In this document: one piece after another, positions 7,330 through 31,607 of the stretch
How the letters are laid out: each line of letters begins with the position of its first letter
How positions within the stretch are numbered: the first letter of the stretch is position 1
Assembly (NCBI RefSeq): GCF_017377745.1
Contig: NZ_JAFVMG010000007.1
Span: forward strand, 62,001 to 126,000
Length of the DNA: 64,000 nt
DNA from: Acetobacter suratthaniensis
Lineage (GTDB): Bacteria; Pseudomonadota; Alphaproteobacteria; Acetobacterales; Acetobacteraceae
Direction of reading: 5' to 3'
Program-made: the position numbers and the translations under genes
The notes under the pieces: generated by a model
What the model was told of the DNA's origin: nothing
Seen by the model: the letters and a program-made list of their open reading frames with translations, nothing else
The model's database searches: none

Positions 7330-8706
7330 ATGGATAAGAATTTCATCTATCTTACGCCGCAGGAACAATGGCGTGACATTATTTTGCAGACACCACAGGA
7401 TGAACGCGAACATGTCCGGCGACAGGTCGAGGTGCAGGGGCAGGCCTGTGTGGCGTTCTTTTGCGAAGCGCTGCTTCAGCATGCCGATGTGGCGGATTTT
7501 CTGGAAAAGGACAGTATCCAGAAATCGCTCAAGCGCAGCCTGTATTACTATCTGGTAACCCTGTTTTCCGCCACGCCCGATCATGTGTCCCGCCTGTGCA
7601 AGATACAGATGCGGCTGGGGGCCAGTTATGCCCGTCTGGAAATACCGACCCATATCGTCGCATATGGCTTCTATATTCTGAAAAAGCAGATTCTCGGGCT
7701 GTTCACACAGGACGATGTGGGCAGCTTTGATCGTTCAGGACTGATCCTGTACGCCGGGGGCATGATGGACTTCGCGTTTAAGTTCATTATGCGTTCCTAT
7801 GAAAAAAGCTTTCGCAAAATGGTCGAGGATAATGAGGCGCTGCGCCTTGTTTCTATCGGGCAGGATCTGAGTTTTGAAAAAGAGACGCAGGCACGGACGT
7901 TTTTTTCATGGTGCATGCAAACCATGCGCGCCCTGTGCGAAAACAGTTTTGATGATCTCGAAAATCTGGAAGATTCTGATTTCGGCCTGTGGTTTACCCA
8001 TAAGGGACGCAACCTGTTTAATGGCCGTTCCGAGTTTATGCAGATTCAGCGCGAGATCGAATCTCTCGATACGCAGCTCCATGCCATCCGGCAGGACGGG
8101 TCTGTGCCGGAGCGATTTGTTGCGTCTCTGCATAGGAGTATTCGTAAAATCGTTTTCCTTATGGAAAGTATTTTCCATAATATCGAGCAGATAGAGACCG
8201 GGCGCGACCCGCTGACAAAAGTGCTCAATCGCCGGTTTCTCGATGTGGTGGTGCAGAACGAAATCTCCTTTGCGCTGTCCAAGAACAAGCATTTCAGTAT
8301 CGCGCTGTTTGATATTGATAATTTCAAATCGATCAACGATACGTTCGGGCATCTGGCCGGGGATGAAATCCTGTGCTTTGTGGCTAATACGATTACCTCG
8401 TCCCTACGGGTGAATGATTACGTTTTCCGTTATGGAGGCGAGGAGTTTCTGATTGTTCTGACAGAAACTGACACCGAGGCCGCGCGTAAATGTGCGGAGC
8501 GCATTCGTCTGGCTATCTGTGGCCAGCCCGTAACCCTGCGTTCCGAACAGCAGGTAAGCGTCAGTGTCTCGGGCGGGCTGACAAGCCTGCATGGGCAGAC
8601 CAATGTCCGCACCTTGATCAACCGGGCGGATCAGGCGCTCTACACGGCCAAGGCGCAGGGGCGTAACCGCATTGTTGTCGGGCATATGCCGCAGAGTGTG
8701 GCGTAA
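7330..8706 (+). CDS. Globin-coupled diguanylate cyclase (DosC-like) with altered heme ligands
   Basis: 458 residues in the order globin-sensor domain (about 1-155), middle helical domain and C-terminal GGDEF domain. The layout and many stretches resemble E. coli DosC (ARLEIPTHIVAYGFYILKK versus its ARIGIPVEIVEMGFRVLKK; FGLWFTHKGR; DPLTKVLNRRFL). The cyclase has an intact GGEEF active site (residues 369-373) and an upstream RxxD inhibitory site (RVND), so it should make c-di-GMP from two GTP. The position of the proximal heme His (DosC His98) is Tyr100 here, and the distal Tyr looks replaced by Phe, so O2 sensing through heme is doubtful. The ATG at 7330 is chosen because the upstream extension has no homology. 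Confidence 0.88.
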   Translation: MDKNFIYLTPQEQWRDIILQTPQDEREHVRRQVEVQGQACVAFFCEALLQHADVADFLEKDSIQKSLKRSLYYYLVTLFSATPDHVSRLCKIQMRLGASYARLEIPTHIVAYGFYILKKQILGLFTQDDVGSFDRSGLILYAGGMMDFAFKFIMRSYEKSFRKMVEDNEALRLVSIGQDLSFEKETQARTFFSWCMQTMRALCENSFDDLENLEDSDFGLWFTHKGRNLFNGRSEFMQIQREIESLDTQLHAIRQDGSVPERFVASLHRSIRKIVFLMESIFHNIEQIETGRDPLTKVLNRRFLDVVVQNEISFALSKNKHFSIALFDIDNFKSINDTFGHLAGDEILCFVANTITSSLRVNDYVFRYGGEEFLIVLTETDTEAARKCAERIRLAICGQPVTLRSEQQVSVSVSGGLTSLHGQTNVRTLINRADQALYTAKAQGRNRIVVGHMPQSVA

Positions 8707-9006
8707 CCTTTCGCAAGGGGTGGGCCTTGTGTCTGCTTGGTCTGCCCCGTTATGCACGGCATGGCTGCACTGTCTCATTGGTGGGCTTGATTACCGGCCG
8801 TGTTTTTTCCAGTCGGTTCCGCATTGTATGGTTGCTTGACACATTGTCCGATGGCAGAATAGAACCCCGTTCTTCAGTCGAATGAGCGACATCGTTTAAG
8901 ATTTCTTTAAGATTTTTCAGACCGCAGCCCGCTCTGGTCCCTTGCGTGGGTGGGAGACTTTTTCGCCTCGGTGCCGAAAAAGGGCGGTATCCAAGGATAG
9001 CGAGCA
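8707..9006. other. Intergenic region between cyclase and HD-GYP genes
   Basis: About 300 bp without a credible gene. It contains a TTGACA-like hexamer near 8836, a duplicated TTTAAGATTT (about 8895-8918) and a Shine-Dalgarno AAGGA before the HD-GYP start. The HD-GYP gene probably has its own promoter here. Confidence 0.4.
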
Positions 9007-9657
9007 ATGTCAGGGGAACAAGAGACCGGGGCGTGGTCAGAGCACGCATTGCCCCCCAAGACACTGCCGTTTGCGCATTTTATCCGCCATGTGGCGGATA
9101 TGGATGAAGGGCATGGGTTCAGGGTTGGTCACGTGGCGCAGGTCATTGCTGATCTGGCGGGCATAGATAGTCTCGACCGCTCAGTCCTGAAAACCGCTGG
9201 CGAATTGCACGATACCGGCAAACTGCTGATCCCTGAGGCCATTCTTCAGGCTCCCAGACGTCTGACCGATGACGAGAAAAGAACCGTCCAGCGTCACCCG
9301 CTGCTCGGGCTTGCGGTAACCCAGTGGTACGATCACGTCTTTACGCAGGATGTGCTCGATACAATTCTTATGCACCATGAACACTGGGACGGCAGCGGTT
9401 ATCCGTTGGGGCTGAAAGGGGAAAACATTCCCCTGTTGGTGCGTATTGTCTCGCTGGCGGATACGATTGATGCCTGTGCGTCACGCAGACGTTACAAGGC
9501 GCCTTGGTCTGTCCCCCGTTTGCAGGACTATCTCCGCAAGGAAAGCGGCCGGAGCTTTGATCCGCATCTGGCGACACTGTGCGCTGATAACCTTCCCCAG
9601 ATTGTCAGCTCCATGCATGACATACAGCCTACTACGCCCACATCGCAGACCAGCTAA
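9007..9657 (+). CDS. HD-GYP domain c-di-GMP phosphodiesterase
   Basis: 216-residue, single-domain HD-GYP protein expected to hydrolyse c-di-GMP. Metal-binding motifs are all visible: GELHDTGKL (HD), VQRHPLLG, HHEHWDGSGYP (HHE plus GYP loop) and SLADTIDA. There is no sensor or membrane segment, so control must be by expression or partner proteins. It follows the globin-coupled cyclase on the same strand, giving a make-and-break pair for c-di-GMP. The start ATG has AAGGA 9 nt upstream. Its stop overlaps the stop of the convergent LysR gene by 3 bp. Confidence 0.88.
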   Translation: MSGEQETGAWSEHALPPKTLPFAHFIRHVADMDEGHGFRVGHVAQVIADLAGIDSLDRSVLKTAGELHDTGKLLIPEAILQAPRRLTDDEKRTVQRHPLLGLAVTQWYDHVFTQDVLDTILMHHEHWDGSGYPLGLKGENIPLLVRIVSLADTIDACASRRRYKAPWSVPRLQDYLRKESGRSFDPHLATLCADNLPQIVSSMHDIQPTTPTSQTS

Positions 9658-28386: not shown

Positions 28387-29649
28387 ATGGACACCATCAG
28401 CCTTGTCGCCTTGTTGCTGGCCTGCGCCGCGGGTTTCAGCATCCTCAATCACCACTTTCTGCGGGTGCCTGTCACGATTGGGGTGCTGATTTTCTCCCTG
28501 CTGGCCTCGCTCCTGCTGGTGGCGCTGGATCGGCTGATACCAGCGCATAATCTGCTGGCTTTTCCCCGTTCCGTGCTGGGGGCGGTCAATTTGCCGGAAT
28601 CGTTATTGAACGGTGTTCTCTGCCTTCTGCTGTTTGCCGGGGCCATGCAGGTGGATGTTGCACATCTGCGCACCCGGCTGGCATCGGTTGCGGCCCTGTC
28701 TGTGCTGGGTACCATTTTTGCTGTGGCTTTTCTGGCCGGAGCAGCATGGTATCTGTTTCCCCTGCTAGGTCAGGCGGTGCCTTTCTCGTGGTGTATCGTG
28801 CTGGGAGCCATTTTGGCTCCGACTGACCCGGTTTCGGTTGTAGGCATGCTTAAACGGCTTGGGCTGCCCGGTCAGGTTCAGGCGGTTTTCGCGGGGGAGA
28901 GCCTGTTTAATGACGGGGTGGGTGTGGTCATTTTCGGCGTCACACTGGGGCTTGCAACTGGCAGTCGTGACGTGGTTTCAGCCTCCGGTATCGCACTGGA
29001 TTTCTGCCGCGAGGCTCTGGGCGGCGGGGTGCTGGGGGCGGTTACAGGCTGGATTGCGCTGCGTATGCTGGCATGGCAACGCGATGGGCATATCGACCTG
29101 TTGATTTCGTTGGCGTTGGCGACGGTTACATTCAGCATCGCTAGTCATCTTGGCATGTCCGGGGCTATCGCCGTGGTGGTGGCCGGCCTGTATTTCGGCA
29201 CAGGGTTTGCCCGCACAGAGCCAGTGTTGTTTGATGAGGCTTCACAGCGTGCACTGGAGAATGCCTGGACCCTGATTGATGAAGTCCTGAATGTACTGCT
29301 GTTTTTGCTGATCGGCTTTGAAGCTCTGGAGATCACACTCAGCCCATTCACTGTTACGGCCATGCTGTGCGTTATTCCCCTATCCATTGTGGTGCGGGCG
29401 CTTAGTATATTGTTGTCCATCCTGCCCGAGCATCTGCGCCGGTGGGAGAAGGGGCGTGTTCTGGCCGTTCTGACATGGGGTGGCCTGCGTGGCGGCATAT
29501 CGGTGTCTCTCGTGCTTGGCCTGCCACCCGGCCCGCTTCGTGATCTGCTGCTGCCAGTCTGTTACGGCGTTGTGGTGTTCACCATTATTGTGCAGGGCCT
29601 GACCATGGAAAAGGTCGTGCGTAGATTCTACCCGAAAGCGGTAACTTAG
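28387..29649 (+). CDS. Sodium/proton antiporter, CPA1 (NhaP/NHE) family
   Basis: 420 residues, about 12 hydrophobic segments. Family signatures: GAILAPTDPVSVVGMLKRLGLP and FAGESLFNDGVGVVIFGVTLG, where the Asp-bearing motifs bind the cation, plus LTWGGLRGGISVSLVLGLP near the end. It exchanges Na+ (or K+) for H+ across the inner membrane. It stands alone between two hairpin-bounded units; acid or salt stress is a plausible role in an acetic acid bacterium (inference). Confidence 0.88.
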   Translation: MDTISLVALLLACAAGFSILNHHFLRVPVTIGVLIFSLLASLLLVALDRLIPAHNLLAFPRSVLGAVNLPESLLNGVLCLLLFAGAMQVDVAHLRTRLASVAALSVLGTIFAVAFLAGAAWYLFPLLGQAVPFSWCIVLGAILAPTDPVSVVGMLKRLGLPGQVQAVFAGESLFNDGVGVVIFGVTLGLATGSRDVVSASGIALDFCREALGGGVLGAVTGWIALRMLAWQRDGHIDLLISLALATVTFSIASHLGMSGAIAVVVAGLYFGTGFARTEPVLFDEASQRALENAWTLIDEVLNVLLFLLIGFEALEITLSPFTVTAMLCVIPLSIVVRALSILLSILPEHLRRWEKGRVLAVLTWGGLRGGISVSLVLGLPPGPLRDLLLPVCYGVVVFTIIVQGLTMEKVVRRFYPKAVT

Positions 29650-29663
29650 CCGCATTGAAGCGG

Positions 29664-31127
29664 TTAGGAGTAGCGGGGTAGATCGTTTACCCGGGTGTAA
29701 ATTTCCTCGGCGGCAGTTGGTAGTTGCGTATGATGGACAAGGATAACACCCGTTGTTGCGGCTACCTGTCTTGCAGACTGAGAGAATGTCGAGTTCGTGG
29801 CTACAATGGCACCGCTTGCCCCTTGAAAATTTTGGGCGGCGAAAGCCTGCTGGACGGCATCATTTCCGACGGTTCCTGAATACAGCTTGCACTGTACGAC
29901 GATCCTGACATTTCCTTTTCGGGCAATAACATCAGCCCCCTGATCACCACTTTTTTTGGTAGCATGAGCATCCCATCCAGCATTGCGGAGAATGAGGGCG
30001 CAGTGTTGTTCGTAATCAAATGGATCCATTCGGGTGTCAAACACGGTTGGATCACTGATATACGCTGTCGTTCCCGCATTGACGGGAAGCGGATGCGCGG
30101 CAAGGTCGGCAATCATATTGATGGCATTTGCCCGGAGCTTTTGCCGAAGGTTTTTATTGGTCGTTCCAGAATCAATAATGTTATCAATTCTGGTTTCCAT
30201 GAAATAGCTTATTTCTCTTGCCCACGCTGCCGTTTGAAGCGTTCCATATTGATCCTTGGTAAGTTTTTGGGTTCTTGCGATTTGTAGGTTCAGTTTCTGG
30301 AAAGATATTTCTTTCGATACTGCATCCCAGGTAGCCTGATAGGCTTTGGTTTGCAGTGTCTTGGCTGTTGCATAGAGAGCTATAACAATAGCGGAAAAGA
30401 TCATGAAATAATAAGGAACATTCGACCCTGATTGGTGATTGTAGCTGTGAATGTCCGGGGTTTGGTCCGGTTTTTCTGGGAGAATGGACGCATCTGGGCT
30501 GTTCCTGTCCATAACAGCTTTTGATACCGGCAGGTTTTTTGTTTCAGAATCCAGCCTTATAGCATCACTATCAGAAAGGAACCCGTCAGCGACCATGTCT
30601 TCATGCGATTTTTGCCATTGCATGATGGCTGCACGCGTTCCCTCTCCATAGACACCATCTGCCCGGCTGCTGCTTTTTAGAAAGCCGAGGTTAATCAAGT
30701 CCTGCTGCAGAGCGATATGTTGGTCAATCGGGCGGTCGGCTTCTTGTAAAGGGGCACCACTGAGGCGGGCTTTGTACTTGTCAGTCAGGGTGTCCATATG
30801 TGTGATGTAGCAGGTCGGGTCAGCCTGAGGGATATTTTGAGGGCCAACCAGACTTGAAGGATCAAGGCATTCAGAGAATGCGGCATCATCCGCAATAATT
30901 TCCTGCTTGAGCGTTTTCCAGCCGTCTTTTCCGACAATCTGGCGCAGAGCGTAATAAGCCTGATCAAACATCAGTTCGTGTTTGGCGGCTTCGCTGTTCT
31001 CACACAGCATTGTGGCGATGCTGTCTTTTGTGTGATCTGCGGAACAGTTGAAATCAGGTTTGTACTCTTGAGCCCATGCTGCGGGTGCTAGCGATAGCCC
31101 AGCCATAATAAACAGGAACCGTCTCAA
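29664..31127 (-). CDS. Membrane-anchored Mrr-type nuclease with periplasmic LprI and peptidoglycan-binding domains
   Basis: 487 residues with an unusual order. A signal peptide (1-19, ends AWA-Q) is followed by an LprI/DUF1311-like Cys-rich domain (about 27-124; FNCSADHTKDSIATMLCENSEAAKHELMFDQAYYALR in spirit), a PG_binding_1-like domain (about 134-192; DGVYGEGTRAAIMQWQ), one transmembrane helix (about 238-255), a helical linker, and a C-terminal Mrr-type restriction-endonuclease-fold domain (about 368-470) with GADVIARKG (Asp399) and VVQCKLY (Gln412, Lys414), the D...QxK active-site pattern. Predicted topology puts the nuclease in the cytoplasm. The gene is AT-richer than its neighbours (26 of 60 GC at 30301-30360) and lies next to a tRNA gene, suggesting transfer. 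Confidence 0.8.
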   Translation of the reverse strand: MRRFLFIMAGLSLAPAAWAQEYKPDFNCSADHTKDSIATMLCENSEAAKHELMFDQAYYALRQIVGKDGWKTLKQEIIADDAAFSECLDPSSLVGPQNIPQADPTCYITHMDTLTDKYKARLSGAPLQEADRPIDQHIALQQDLINLGFLKSSSRADGVYGEGTRAAIMQWQKSHEDMVADGFLSDSDAIRLDSETKNLPVSKAVMDRNSPDASILPEKPDQTPDIHSYNHQSGSNVPYYFMIFSAIVIALYATAKTLQTKAYQATWDAVSKEISFQKLNLQIARTQKLTKDQYGTLQTAAWAREISYFMETRIDNIIDSGTTNKNLRQKLRANAINMIADLAAHPLPVNAGTTAYISDPTVFDTRMDPFDYEQHCALILRNAGWDAHATKKSGDQGADVIARKGNVRIVVQCKLYSGTVGNDAVQQAFAAQNFQGASGAIVATNSTFSQSARQVAATTGVILVHHTQLPTAAEEIYTRVNDLPRYS

Positions 31128-31294
31128 ATTTCTCTCCCCTCTTATATCGAGACGATAGCCCGATGAGTCAGTTCGGGCGAGTCAGGATCCTGTGGGGCTG
31201 AAGTGAGGGGACTTGTTTTCCAAATGTTATGAGGTTGGGAGGCGGCACCTGTTGGCTGCCGCTTTTCTGAACCGCTTTTGCTTGGTGTGTGTGT

Positions 31295-31607
31295 TGGTGT
31301 CCGCGGCGGGATTCGAACCCACGGCCCCAGGATTCATCCCACTACGGTTTTCACCGCCGTCCTGTTCCTGAGCGGAGCAGGGCGTTCGTGGGCTGGACTG
31401 TCCCTTTGCCATAAACCTGCATGCAGGTTGTTAGGCACCGCCCGTCCAGTCTCTACACCTTCCGCCCGAGGGCGGCTTGGCTCGGGATTGGCAAGGCCTT
31501 GCGGCCGTAGCGTTCCCCGACTTTGAGCGGATTCACCATGACGTTTCCTGACATGGTGCCCAATTTATCTAGGAATCCTGTGCTCTATCCTGCTGAGCTA
31601 CGCGGAC
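31295..31607 (-). tRNA. tRNA-Arg(CCU) interrupted by a group I intron
   Basis: The 5' exon is 31571-31607 and the 3' exon is 31295-31334, including an encoded CCA. Joined exons fold as a complete tRNA: acceptor GTCCGCG/CGCGGAC, D stem GCTC/GAGC, anticodon stem CAGGA/TCCTG with loop TTCCTAA (anticodon CCU), T stem GTGGG/CCCGC (one G-C wobble-free set with loop TTCGAAT), discriminator A. The two halves are 236 nt apart; the break lies right after anticodon base 36. It lies 72 bp downstream of holA on the same strand. Confidence 0.93.
31335..31570 (-). ncRNA. Group I self-splicing intron in tRNA-Arg(CCU)
   Basis: 236 nt, inserted between anticodon positions 36 and 37. The 5' exon ends in U and the intron ends in G (omega-G), as required. 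GGG at intron nt 10-12 can pair with the exon end CCU, giving the U-G wobble at the splice site. A P2-like stem CACCATG/CATGGTG with a GGAAAC loop follows. CTGGAC and GTCCAG further on form a P7-like pairing around GTGCCTAAC, and a GAAA loop lies in GGTGAAAACC near the 3' end. Size and site match the small IC3 introns of Agrobacterium-type tRNA-Arg(CCU). No ORF inside. Confidence 0.88.

Follow-up and report, generated by a model that had tools for sequence, protein, structure and literature searches.

A putative superinfection-exclusion nuclease of Acetobacter suratthaniensis with relatives in prophage tail clusters

Why should a DNA-cutting domain be tied to the cell wall? The question is raised by a gene in a 64,000-nt stretch of Acetobacter suratthaniensis (GCF_017377745.1, NZ_JAFVMG010000007.1, positions 62,001-126,000 of the forward strand; hereafter the window), whose product joins an LprI-like periplasmic domain and a peptidoglycan-binding (PGB) domain to a transmembrane (TM) helix and a cytoplasmic Mrr nuclease. 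A preliminary description of the gene had recognised this layout and guessed at a role in defence. Our analysis confirms the layout and supports the guess in part, strengthening it and making it more specific without proving it: a relative is found among the tail genes of a prophage, and superinfection-immunity domains occur either fused to the periplasmic module or in the same slot. We conclude that the window protein is probably an anti-phage nuclease acting in superinfection exclusion, which was dispersed as a moron of prophages and is now found on its own next to a tRNA gene. It probably cuts incoming virus DNA, because its relatives lie in prophages, in a slot common to genes that exclude rival viruses.

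The closest full-length relative (69-70% identity) is found in a prophage of genome G019 (G and L numbers denote genomes and loci), where it lies between the tape-measure and baseplate genes, reversed and AT-rich. In IMG/VR, the gene lies next to tail genes or in their midst, on the strand opposite to theirs, in all six distinct contigs carrying the LprI-PGB module, a count that shows position within the phage and not how often the gene is phage-borne, since that collection is selected for viral contigs. The distance to the tape-measure gene ranges from 2 to 3368 bp, and the GC content of the gene is lower than that of the rest of the locus in 6/6 (0.41-0.52 vs 0.51-0.61). One of these contigs (L043) is the same prophage as that of G019, as judged by gene order and lengths; another (L045) stops about 1.2 kb from the gene on its other side. 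Tape-measure genes were called with PHROGs for G019/L043 and L044, and by Pfam, homology to these or eye for the others. The output that follows the module on the viral contigs is TM-Mrr (L043), a split TM-Mrr (L044), Imm_superinfect (L143, L145) or a part with no TM helix (L045, L046). Among the LprI-PGB loci from our 100-genome survey whose flanks were read, only those of G019 and G028:C23 lie in tail clusters.

The split locus, L044, has further features. At 7737-9344, LprI-PGB and TM-Mrr are parted by an in-frame TGA directly before an ATG, an arrangement that might reflect a nonsense mutation or else a gene naturally divided to give two proteins. Directly upstream lies a separate gene for a 90-aa Imm_superinfect protein (E=4.1e-16; PHROG 'immunity to superinfection', E=3.9e-21). 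The G022 prophage (L227), whose tape measure is 96% identical to that of L044, keeps the Imm gene and its 164-aa neighbour and has a protein resembling tetratricopeptide repeats (by eye, P0002) in the place of the fusion. The isolated Acetobacter phage phiAP1 has a related tail lysozyme/tape measure (31% over 63%) and no annotated insert at the corresponding position.

The link to superinfection immunity extends beyond this locus. Imm_superinfect (PF14373), a domain resembling the Imm protein of phage T4, has 15 matches in 14 of the 49 genomes of the genus, and 13 of the 15 fall in frames that contain LprI-PGB, with E values of about 1e-14 to 5e-11 for the Imm_superinfect C-termini. The remaining two are separate small genes that lie 1578 bp (G022) and 44 bp (G017) from prophage tape-measure genes. 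LprI is named as a family of lysozyme inhibitors, and in five of eight prophages (L044, L143, L145, L227, L228), as in phiAP1, a Phage_lysozyme2 or SLT domain is recognised above the cut-off in the tape-measure protein.

The N-terminal 200 residues of the window protein, which make up LprI-PGB, thus recur fused to TM-Mrr, to Imm_superinfect or to nothing. In three proteins from genus g72 (L153, L154, L155), LprI-PGB is followed by TM helices, with a DnaJ domain in both of those scanned (L153, L155); a DnaJ arm is possibly another output of the module. The nuclease half, a chassis of TM helix, linker and Mrr domain, varies at its other end: one-link BLAST clustering of the N-termini of 32 sufficiently long rows (our protein counted twice; three further rows have short N-termini) gave groups of 10, 10 and 6, the last being LprI-PGB, and six singletons. 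In a midpoint-rooted tree with long branches (39 candidates reduced to 34 rows, without L178, L203, L204, L205 and one identical row), the LprI fusions group together (100/99), with a Zymomonas plasmid copy among them. Because a different periplasmic domain is found in the rows nearest to them (87/78; joined at 97/98), it is probable that a pre-existing nuclease chassis acquired this wall-side part by a swap. The N-termini of L003, L004, L014, L018 and L044 are unlike that of the window protein, with a basic cytoplasmic peptide, KPFW.(R/K)DY(K/R)KA.YNR.YY, and a hydrophobic anchor that is not a signal peptide. Genes for DUF6232 proteins adjoin an Mrr fusion in one genome and an LprI-PGB gene in a second (L047:8085-8495, reverse strand; L055:7827-8252, forward strand), and their product is a possible partner.

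Peptidoglycan binding, tail recognition, DNA cleavage and exclusion are the activities that we infer for the window protein, and they could fit together as follows. The LprI-PGB part would lie in the periplasm at the cell wall, while the flexible stalk and the one TM helix would hold the Mrr nuclease just beneath the inner membrane. As a phage tail passes through the wall, the periplasmic part would engage it, most likely at the tape-measure/tail-lysozyme complex, or else might merely keep the nuclease near injection sites. The nuclease would then cut phage DNA during entry, and its place in the cell would spare the chromosome, as in SNIPE (see below). On the simplest reading, LprI-PGB would act as an arm on the wall side and the fused Imm or Mrr as one on the membrane side. 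The preliminary description suggested that the layout could report envelope damage or phage adsorption, but the part facing the wall may, instead of sensing, serve as an anchor or inhibit the tail lysozyme. By analogy, and much more tentatively, phages of acetic acid bacteria might carry a modular receptor-effector form of exclusion, in which a wall-side module, be it LprI-PGB or another periplasmic part, recognises or inhibits the peptidoglycan hydrolase of the tail in the manner of T4 Spackle and is fused across the membrane to interchangeable Imm or Mrr arms.

A membrane nuclease with a wall-facing domain and no obvious immunity partner gene adjoining it in the window might also serve abortive infection: LprI-PGB would sense wall damage by a phage tail or endolysin, the nuclease would be released, and the cell would die as its chromosome was destroyed. 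However, in the second half of L044, as in the five distinct LprI-PGB fusions that are uninterrupted, a TM helix holds the nuclease at the membrane, and this tether favours cutting on the spot over cutting throughout the nucleoid. The link with Imm_superinfect points to a block at entry. We consider abortive infection unlikely.

How widely the fusion is spread bears on two other explanations. Some part of the window protein is matched in 35 of 100 related genomes, and five of these hold the entire fusion or nearly all of it: its own genome, G019, G006 (where the contig stops short of the 5' end), G034 and G045 (two copies on the same contig; estimated contamination 9%). Two more carry an interrupted copy, broken by a stop and an insertion sequence (IS) in G048 (by eye) and by frameshifts in G005. 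The sites include the tRNA-Arg gene in the window, the prophage tail cluster in G019, the vicinity of coaD/gyrA in G006 and G005 (names by eye) and others; that of G045 is about 5 kb from a tyrosine integrase gene (gene names by eye). A profile of LprI-PGB matches 25 of 200 genomes of the family, of which 15 give E<1e-20 and the other 10 have weak matches to the PGB part. A profile of TM-linker-Mrr matches 35 of the 200 at E<=1e-15 and, at E<=1e-20, 9 of 385 genomes of the class, five of these being from the same family (our genome included). A remnant of the Mrr part lies just upstream of an operon resembling type I-C CRISPR-Cas (by eye) in L054, at about 8400-8600 (G022:C1:946413-946589).

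Among mobile elements, plasmids carry relatives of the Mrr part, 45 of 72,556 plasmid records having some match to the query. Of 50,697 records of isolated phages, 4 match the query, all confined to its Mrr part, and none matches the LprI-Imm fusion of L143, so that the LprI-PGB slot is unseen in the isolated-phage collection. On the E. coli plasmid pE16EC1016-4 (L111:5680-6639), a linker-Mrr relative lies near a gene annotated as 'baseplate protein', across an IS, with a gene annotated as of the LprI family about 4 kb away. The plasmid relatives could suggest a general barrier to incoming DNA, by conjugation, transformation or plasmids, rather than to phages in particular, since excluding rival elements would pay there. 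Yet no plasmid record covers 80% of the query, the LprI-PGB form is found on phage contigs and bacterial contigs, and naked DNA would presumably need no wall-facing module, and we regard such a barrier as quite unlikely.

Alternatively, the protein could be an ordinary envelope or DNA-repair protein of acetic acid bacteria, with the prophage copies being captured host genes. Genes for LprI-PGB-Imm and for other Mrr chassis do occur at ordinary chromosomal sites (by eye), and J-domain fusions exist. But the full fusion is sparse, lies at several different sites and is absent from G002 and G030, the genomes with the closest tRNA loci. This explanation is distinctly improbable.

Is the nuclease likely to be intact, and is it kept by selection? 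The active-site roles of the helix-A Glu, the Asp and the QxK are known from the restriction-endonuclease fold. E373, D399, Q412 and K414 are invariant in 14/14 rows of alignment A1, so the preliminary description was right to call the Asp and QxK intact and to number them Asp399 and Lys414. A QxK or ExK also follows the GDQGAD-type motif in 35/35 chassis rows extracted, that motif being itself the search string; the set holds our protein twice (L001, L178) and leaves out 16 of the 34 loci L177-L210, which have no open reading frame of at least 150 aa with such a string. Between the window gene and its 69%-identical relative, silent sites are saturated (proportion of silent differences, pS, 0.78) while the proportion of amino-acid-changing differences (pN) stays at 0.171 overall, falling to 0.061 in Mrr and reaching 0.442 in the stalk, the least constrained part. 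On this comparison, the window protein is a maintained one. The TTG start and the purine-rich stretch before it are found in 8 of 10 rows inspected, the window gene included; in L019 and L045 this TTG was preferred to an in-frame start further upstream, and L025 and L046 start with ATG. The two broken relatives (G048, G005) might suggest a decayed or passive moron with no present function in this genome, but the open frame, the strong amino-acid conservation beside saturated silent sites and the recurring start make this very improbable.

The domains themselves are assigned with differing support. Pfam places Mrr_cat (PF04471) at residues 366-469 (E=2.7e-24, 85.9 bits vs a cut-off of 21), with Mrr_cat_2 also above its cut-off and weaker, and PG_binding_1 (PF01471) at residues 138-175 (E=1.8e-8, 34.8 bits vs 23). 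An AlphaFold2 model built from 17 rows has a mean predicted local distance difference test (pLDDT) score of 82.6 and a predicted template modelling (pTM) score of 0.42, which means that the domains are good and their relative arrangement is not. The Mrr fold that the preliminary description had proposed to look for was obtained: residues 368-471 superimpose on AF1548 (1y88) with Z 11.9 and 2.8 A over 104 residues, and further matches are Can2, AspBHI and Hjc. The PGB domain resembles SleB (6tci; Z 9.5) and SltB3 (1.6 A over 63 residues). A plain Foldseek search of the PDB gave nothing at E<=0.001, the top match being 1y88 at E 1.9e-3. The linker is partly common to the plasmid relatives (Table 1).

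As for the layout first described, the signal peptide, PGB domain, TM helix and Mrr nuclease are all borne out, and the LprI-like domain is suggested by predicted fold, without a sequence-profile match. LprI (PF07007) has no Pfam match in the window protein at E<=1 and 0 matches in its own genome. Attempts by sequence (Pfam, NCBIfam, PF07007 in 31 genomes, HHalign, a PDB sequence search) gave no convincing link, and fold comparison alone helped. HHalign against 11 LprI domains, with L002 excluded from the input, was marginal (P=0.014, probability 3%). Modelled alone, the domain scores pLDDT 83.7 and pTM 0.73, and the solved structure closest to it is that of the DUF1311 protein 3gi7 (Z 7.6, 5.9 A over 91 residues; the runner-up has Z 5.9), which a profile from eight LprI domains recovers at E=9.2e-7. 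Its cysteine pattern was set beside that of LprI by eye; the cysteines are conserved in alignments A2 and A4, with Cys28 merely nearly invariant in A2. Given the match to 3gi7 and the marginal profile comparison, 'LprI-like' is plausible and not proven.

Table 1 Features of the window gene and its surroundings (window coordinates).
Feature	Position	Strand	Details and basis
Whole gene	29664..31127	-	487 aa, TTG start; start and upstream purine-rich stretch recur in relatives
Signal peptide, residues 1-19 (..AWA|Q)	31071..31127	-	sequence; pLDDT <50; cleavage site by eye
LprI-like periplasmic domain, residues 20-128, Cys 28, 42, 87, 106	30744..31070	-	predicted fold near DUF1311 3gi7; no PF07007 match
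Peptidoglycan-binding domain, residues 134-197	30537..30728	-	Pfam E=1.8e-8; SleB/SltB3 fold
Disordered stalk, residues 198-236	30420..30536	-	pLDDT <50 at 202-234; pN 0.442
TM helix, residues 237-255	30363..30419	-	hydropathy; model helix 237-276
Cytoplasmic helical linker, residues 256-363, motif LQI..Q..YGT..W..E..F	30039..30362	-	invariant or nearly invariant columns in A1
Mrr (PD-D/ExK) nuclease domain, residues 364-470	29718..30038	-	Pfam E=2.7e-24; fold
Codon of predicted catalytic Asp399	29931..29933	-	
Codon of predicted catalytic Lys414	29886..29888	-	
Insertion relative to near relatives	29635..31287		between antiporter and tRNA-Arg genes

The surroundings of the gene are ordinary. 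Its neighbours encode a protein like the alpha subunit of haem-dependent oxidative N-demethylase, a CN hydrolase, a Na/H exchanger, DNA polymerase III delta and leucyl-tRNA synthetase, and eight of the ten flanking proteins have Pfam matches and two have none. The gene is AT-rich, as first described (GC 0.488 vs 0.599 for the window), and forms the lowest-GC stretch of the window: 2 of 1251 gene-sized stretches are equally low, and both overlap it. That it is isolated and next to a tRNA gene also holds for this copy; a defence island it is not part of, the ten flanking proteins giving 0 PADLOC matches at E<=1e-5. The gap between the antiporter and tRNA-Arg genes is 1653 bp in the window, 82 bp in G002 and about 51 bp in G030. 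Integration at the tRNA gene with direct repeats was considered and rejected, the longest repeat common to both ends of the insert being 7 nt. The tRNA-Arg(CCU) gene is itself interrupted by a group I intron, at about 31295-31607 on the reverse strand (tRNA ends and anticodon by eye); the intron model RF00028 matches at 31385-31580 (E=9.3e-6, below the Rfam gathering score), and ARAGORN and Rfam at the gathering score report no tRNA at this locus. The locus is matched in 49/49 genomes of the genus, strongly in 48 (E<1e-45) and weakly in G016 (4e-4), so it is old and unconnected to the insertion in the window.

Several observations weigh against a phage-excluding nuclease carried by prophages. 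Its relatives alone fit the definition of a moron, as phage-borne and separable from structural genes; the window copy lies outside any prophage, and its genome has no match to one tape-measure protein of these prophages in a search made without a positive control. The viral selection of IMG/VR has been noted above. Chassis relatives with other periplasmic domains stand singly among ordinary chromosomal genes (by eye), and LprI-PGB-Imm proteins of 631 aa are encoded by chromosomal genes distant from those of phages, with truA/fmt/def as the neighbours in G032 (by eye). Many LprI-PGB proteins have no membrane effector, with no TM helix beyond the signal peptide (L005, L019, L020, L021, L024, L045, L046). 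No peptidoglycan hydrolase domain was seen in the tape-measure protein of three of the eight prophages (L043, L045, L046), of which L043 corresponds to the G019 prophage, whose tape measure has an endolysin-like match in PHROGs. The 'inactive REase' model NA-iREase1 of Pfam passes its cut-off in the window protein (38.5 bits vs 27), more weakly than Mrr_cat, and the LprI identity of the periplasmic domain is, as said, plausible from its predicted fold. No sigma-70-like site lies upstream of the gene on the coding strand. Nor did a named defence system emerge: PADLOC, applied to the protein and 10 relatives, matches the nuclease part only (ZorD, PDC-S02, mREase_IV, LmuA), the best match of the window protein being ZorD at E=8.2e-14, over Mrr alone.

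If this is right, cutting at the injection point evolved more than once, in GIY-YIG nucleases (SNIPE) as well as in Mrr nucleases (here), and can travel on prophages as superinfection exclusion. Reciprocal swapping of modules would be a direct route to the function of the Imm_superinfect and LprI domains in these bacteria, and there might be practical use against phage trouble in vinegar fermentation. The phage phiAP1 and a cured host are described as already existing (PMC8566455).

How does the window protein compare with known systems? Mrr and type IV-like nucleases (Mrr_cat; mREase_IV and PDC-S02 of PADLOC) are cytoplasmic enzymes driven by DNA recognition. The window protein shares their catalytic domain and fold; unlike them, it is membrane-tethered and has an extracytoplasmic module. 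To our knowledge, the exclusion protein SieA of phage P22 has no nuclease. The paper on SieA cites escape from other exclusion proteins through tape-measure changes (PMC10883804). Mrr fusions with other domains are described in a survey of HEPN proteins (PMC3710099), and, among the open-licence papers listed, the titles and abstract openings describe no membrane-anchored Mrr nuclease with an LprI or peptidoglycan-binding domain.

In phage T4, superinfection exclusion is described as the work of two proteins, Imm and Spackle, the latter a periplasmic helical inhibitor of the tail lysozyme (PMC7677548, PMC7650644). Similarly, Imm_superinfect is joined to LprI-PGB (13/15), and the neighbouring tape measures carry tail-lysozyme or SLT domains (5/8); unlike in T4, the periplasmic part of the window protein is joined to a nuclease. 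No link to Spackle in sequence or structure was found, no search having been aimed at it and the preselection by Foldseek making its absence uninformative. Should the modular receptor-effector reading hold, which is doubtful, the two-protein exclusion of T4 might here be one molecule, with DNA cutting as a new output.

Type I Zorya, as described (PMC11890865; review, PMC12904381), likewise couples a peptidoglycan-binding membrane component to an Mrr-like nuclease. In contrast, the window protein is a single protein with no helicase and has PG_binding_1 in place of the Pal-like peptidoglycan-binding domain of ZorB; no ZorA/ZorB motor genes are found among the 10 flanking proteins, to which the search was confined. 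SNIPE is described as a membrane-bound GIY-YIG nuclease that associates with the tape-measure protein and cleaves phage DNA at the membrane while it is being injected (PMC13190303). Like SNIPE as portrayed there, the window protein is predicted to be a single-pass inner-membrane protein with a periplasmic N-terminus and a cytoplasmic nuclease, and it belongs to a set of proteins with variable N-terminal regions on a conserved nuclease. Unlike SNIPE, it has no DUF4041 or GIY-YIG (Pfam, E<=1) and instead has Mrr and, on the wall side, a folded domain. In the main text of the SNIPE paper, 'Mrr' and 'restriction endonuclease' occur 0 times. By its domain content and its neighbours, then, the window protein is a member of neither SNIPE nor Zorya, and by analogy it may work like SNIPE.
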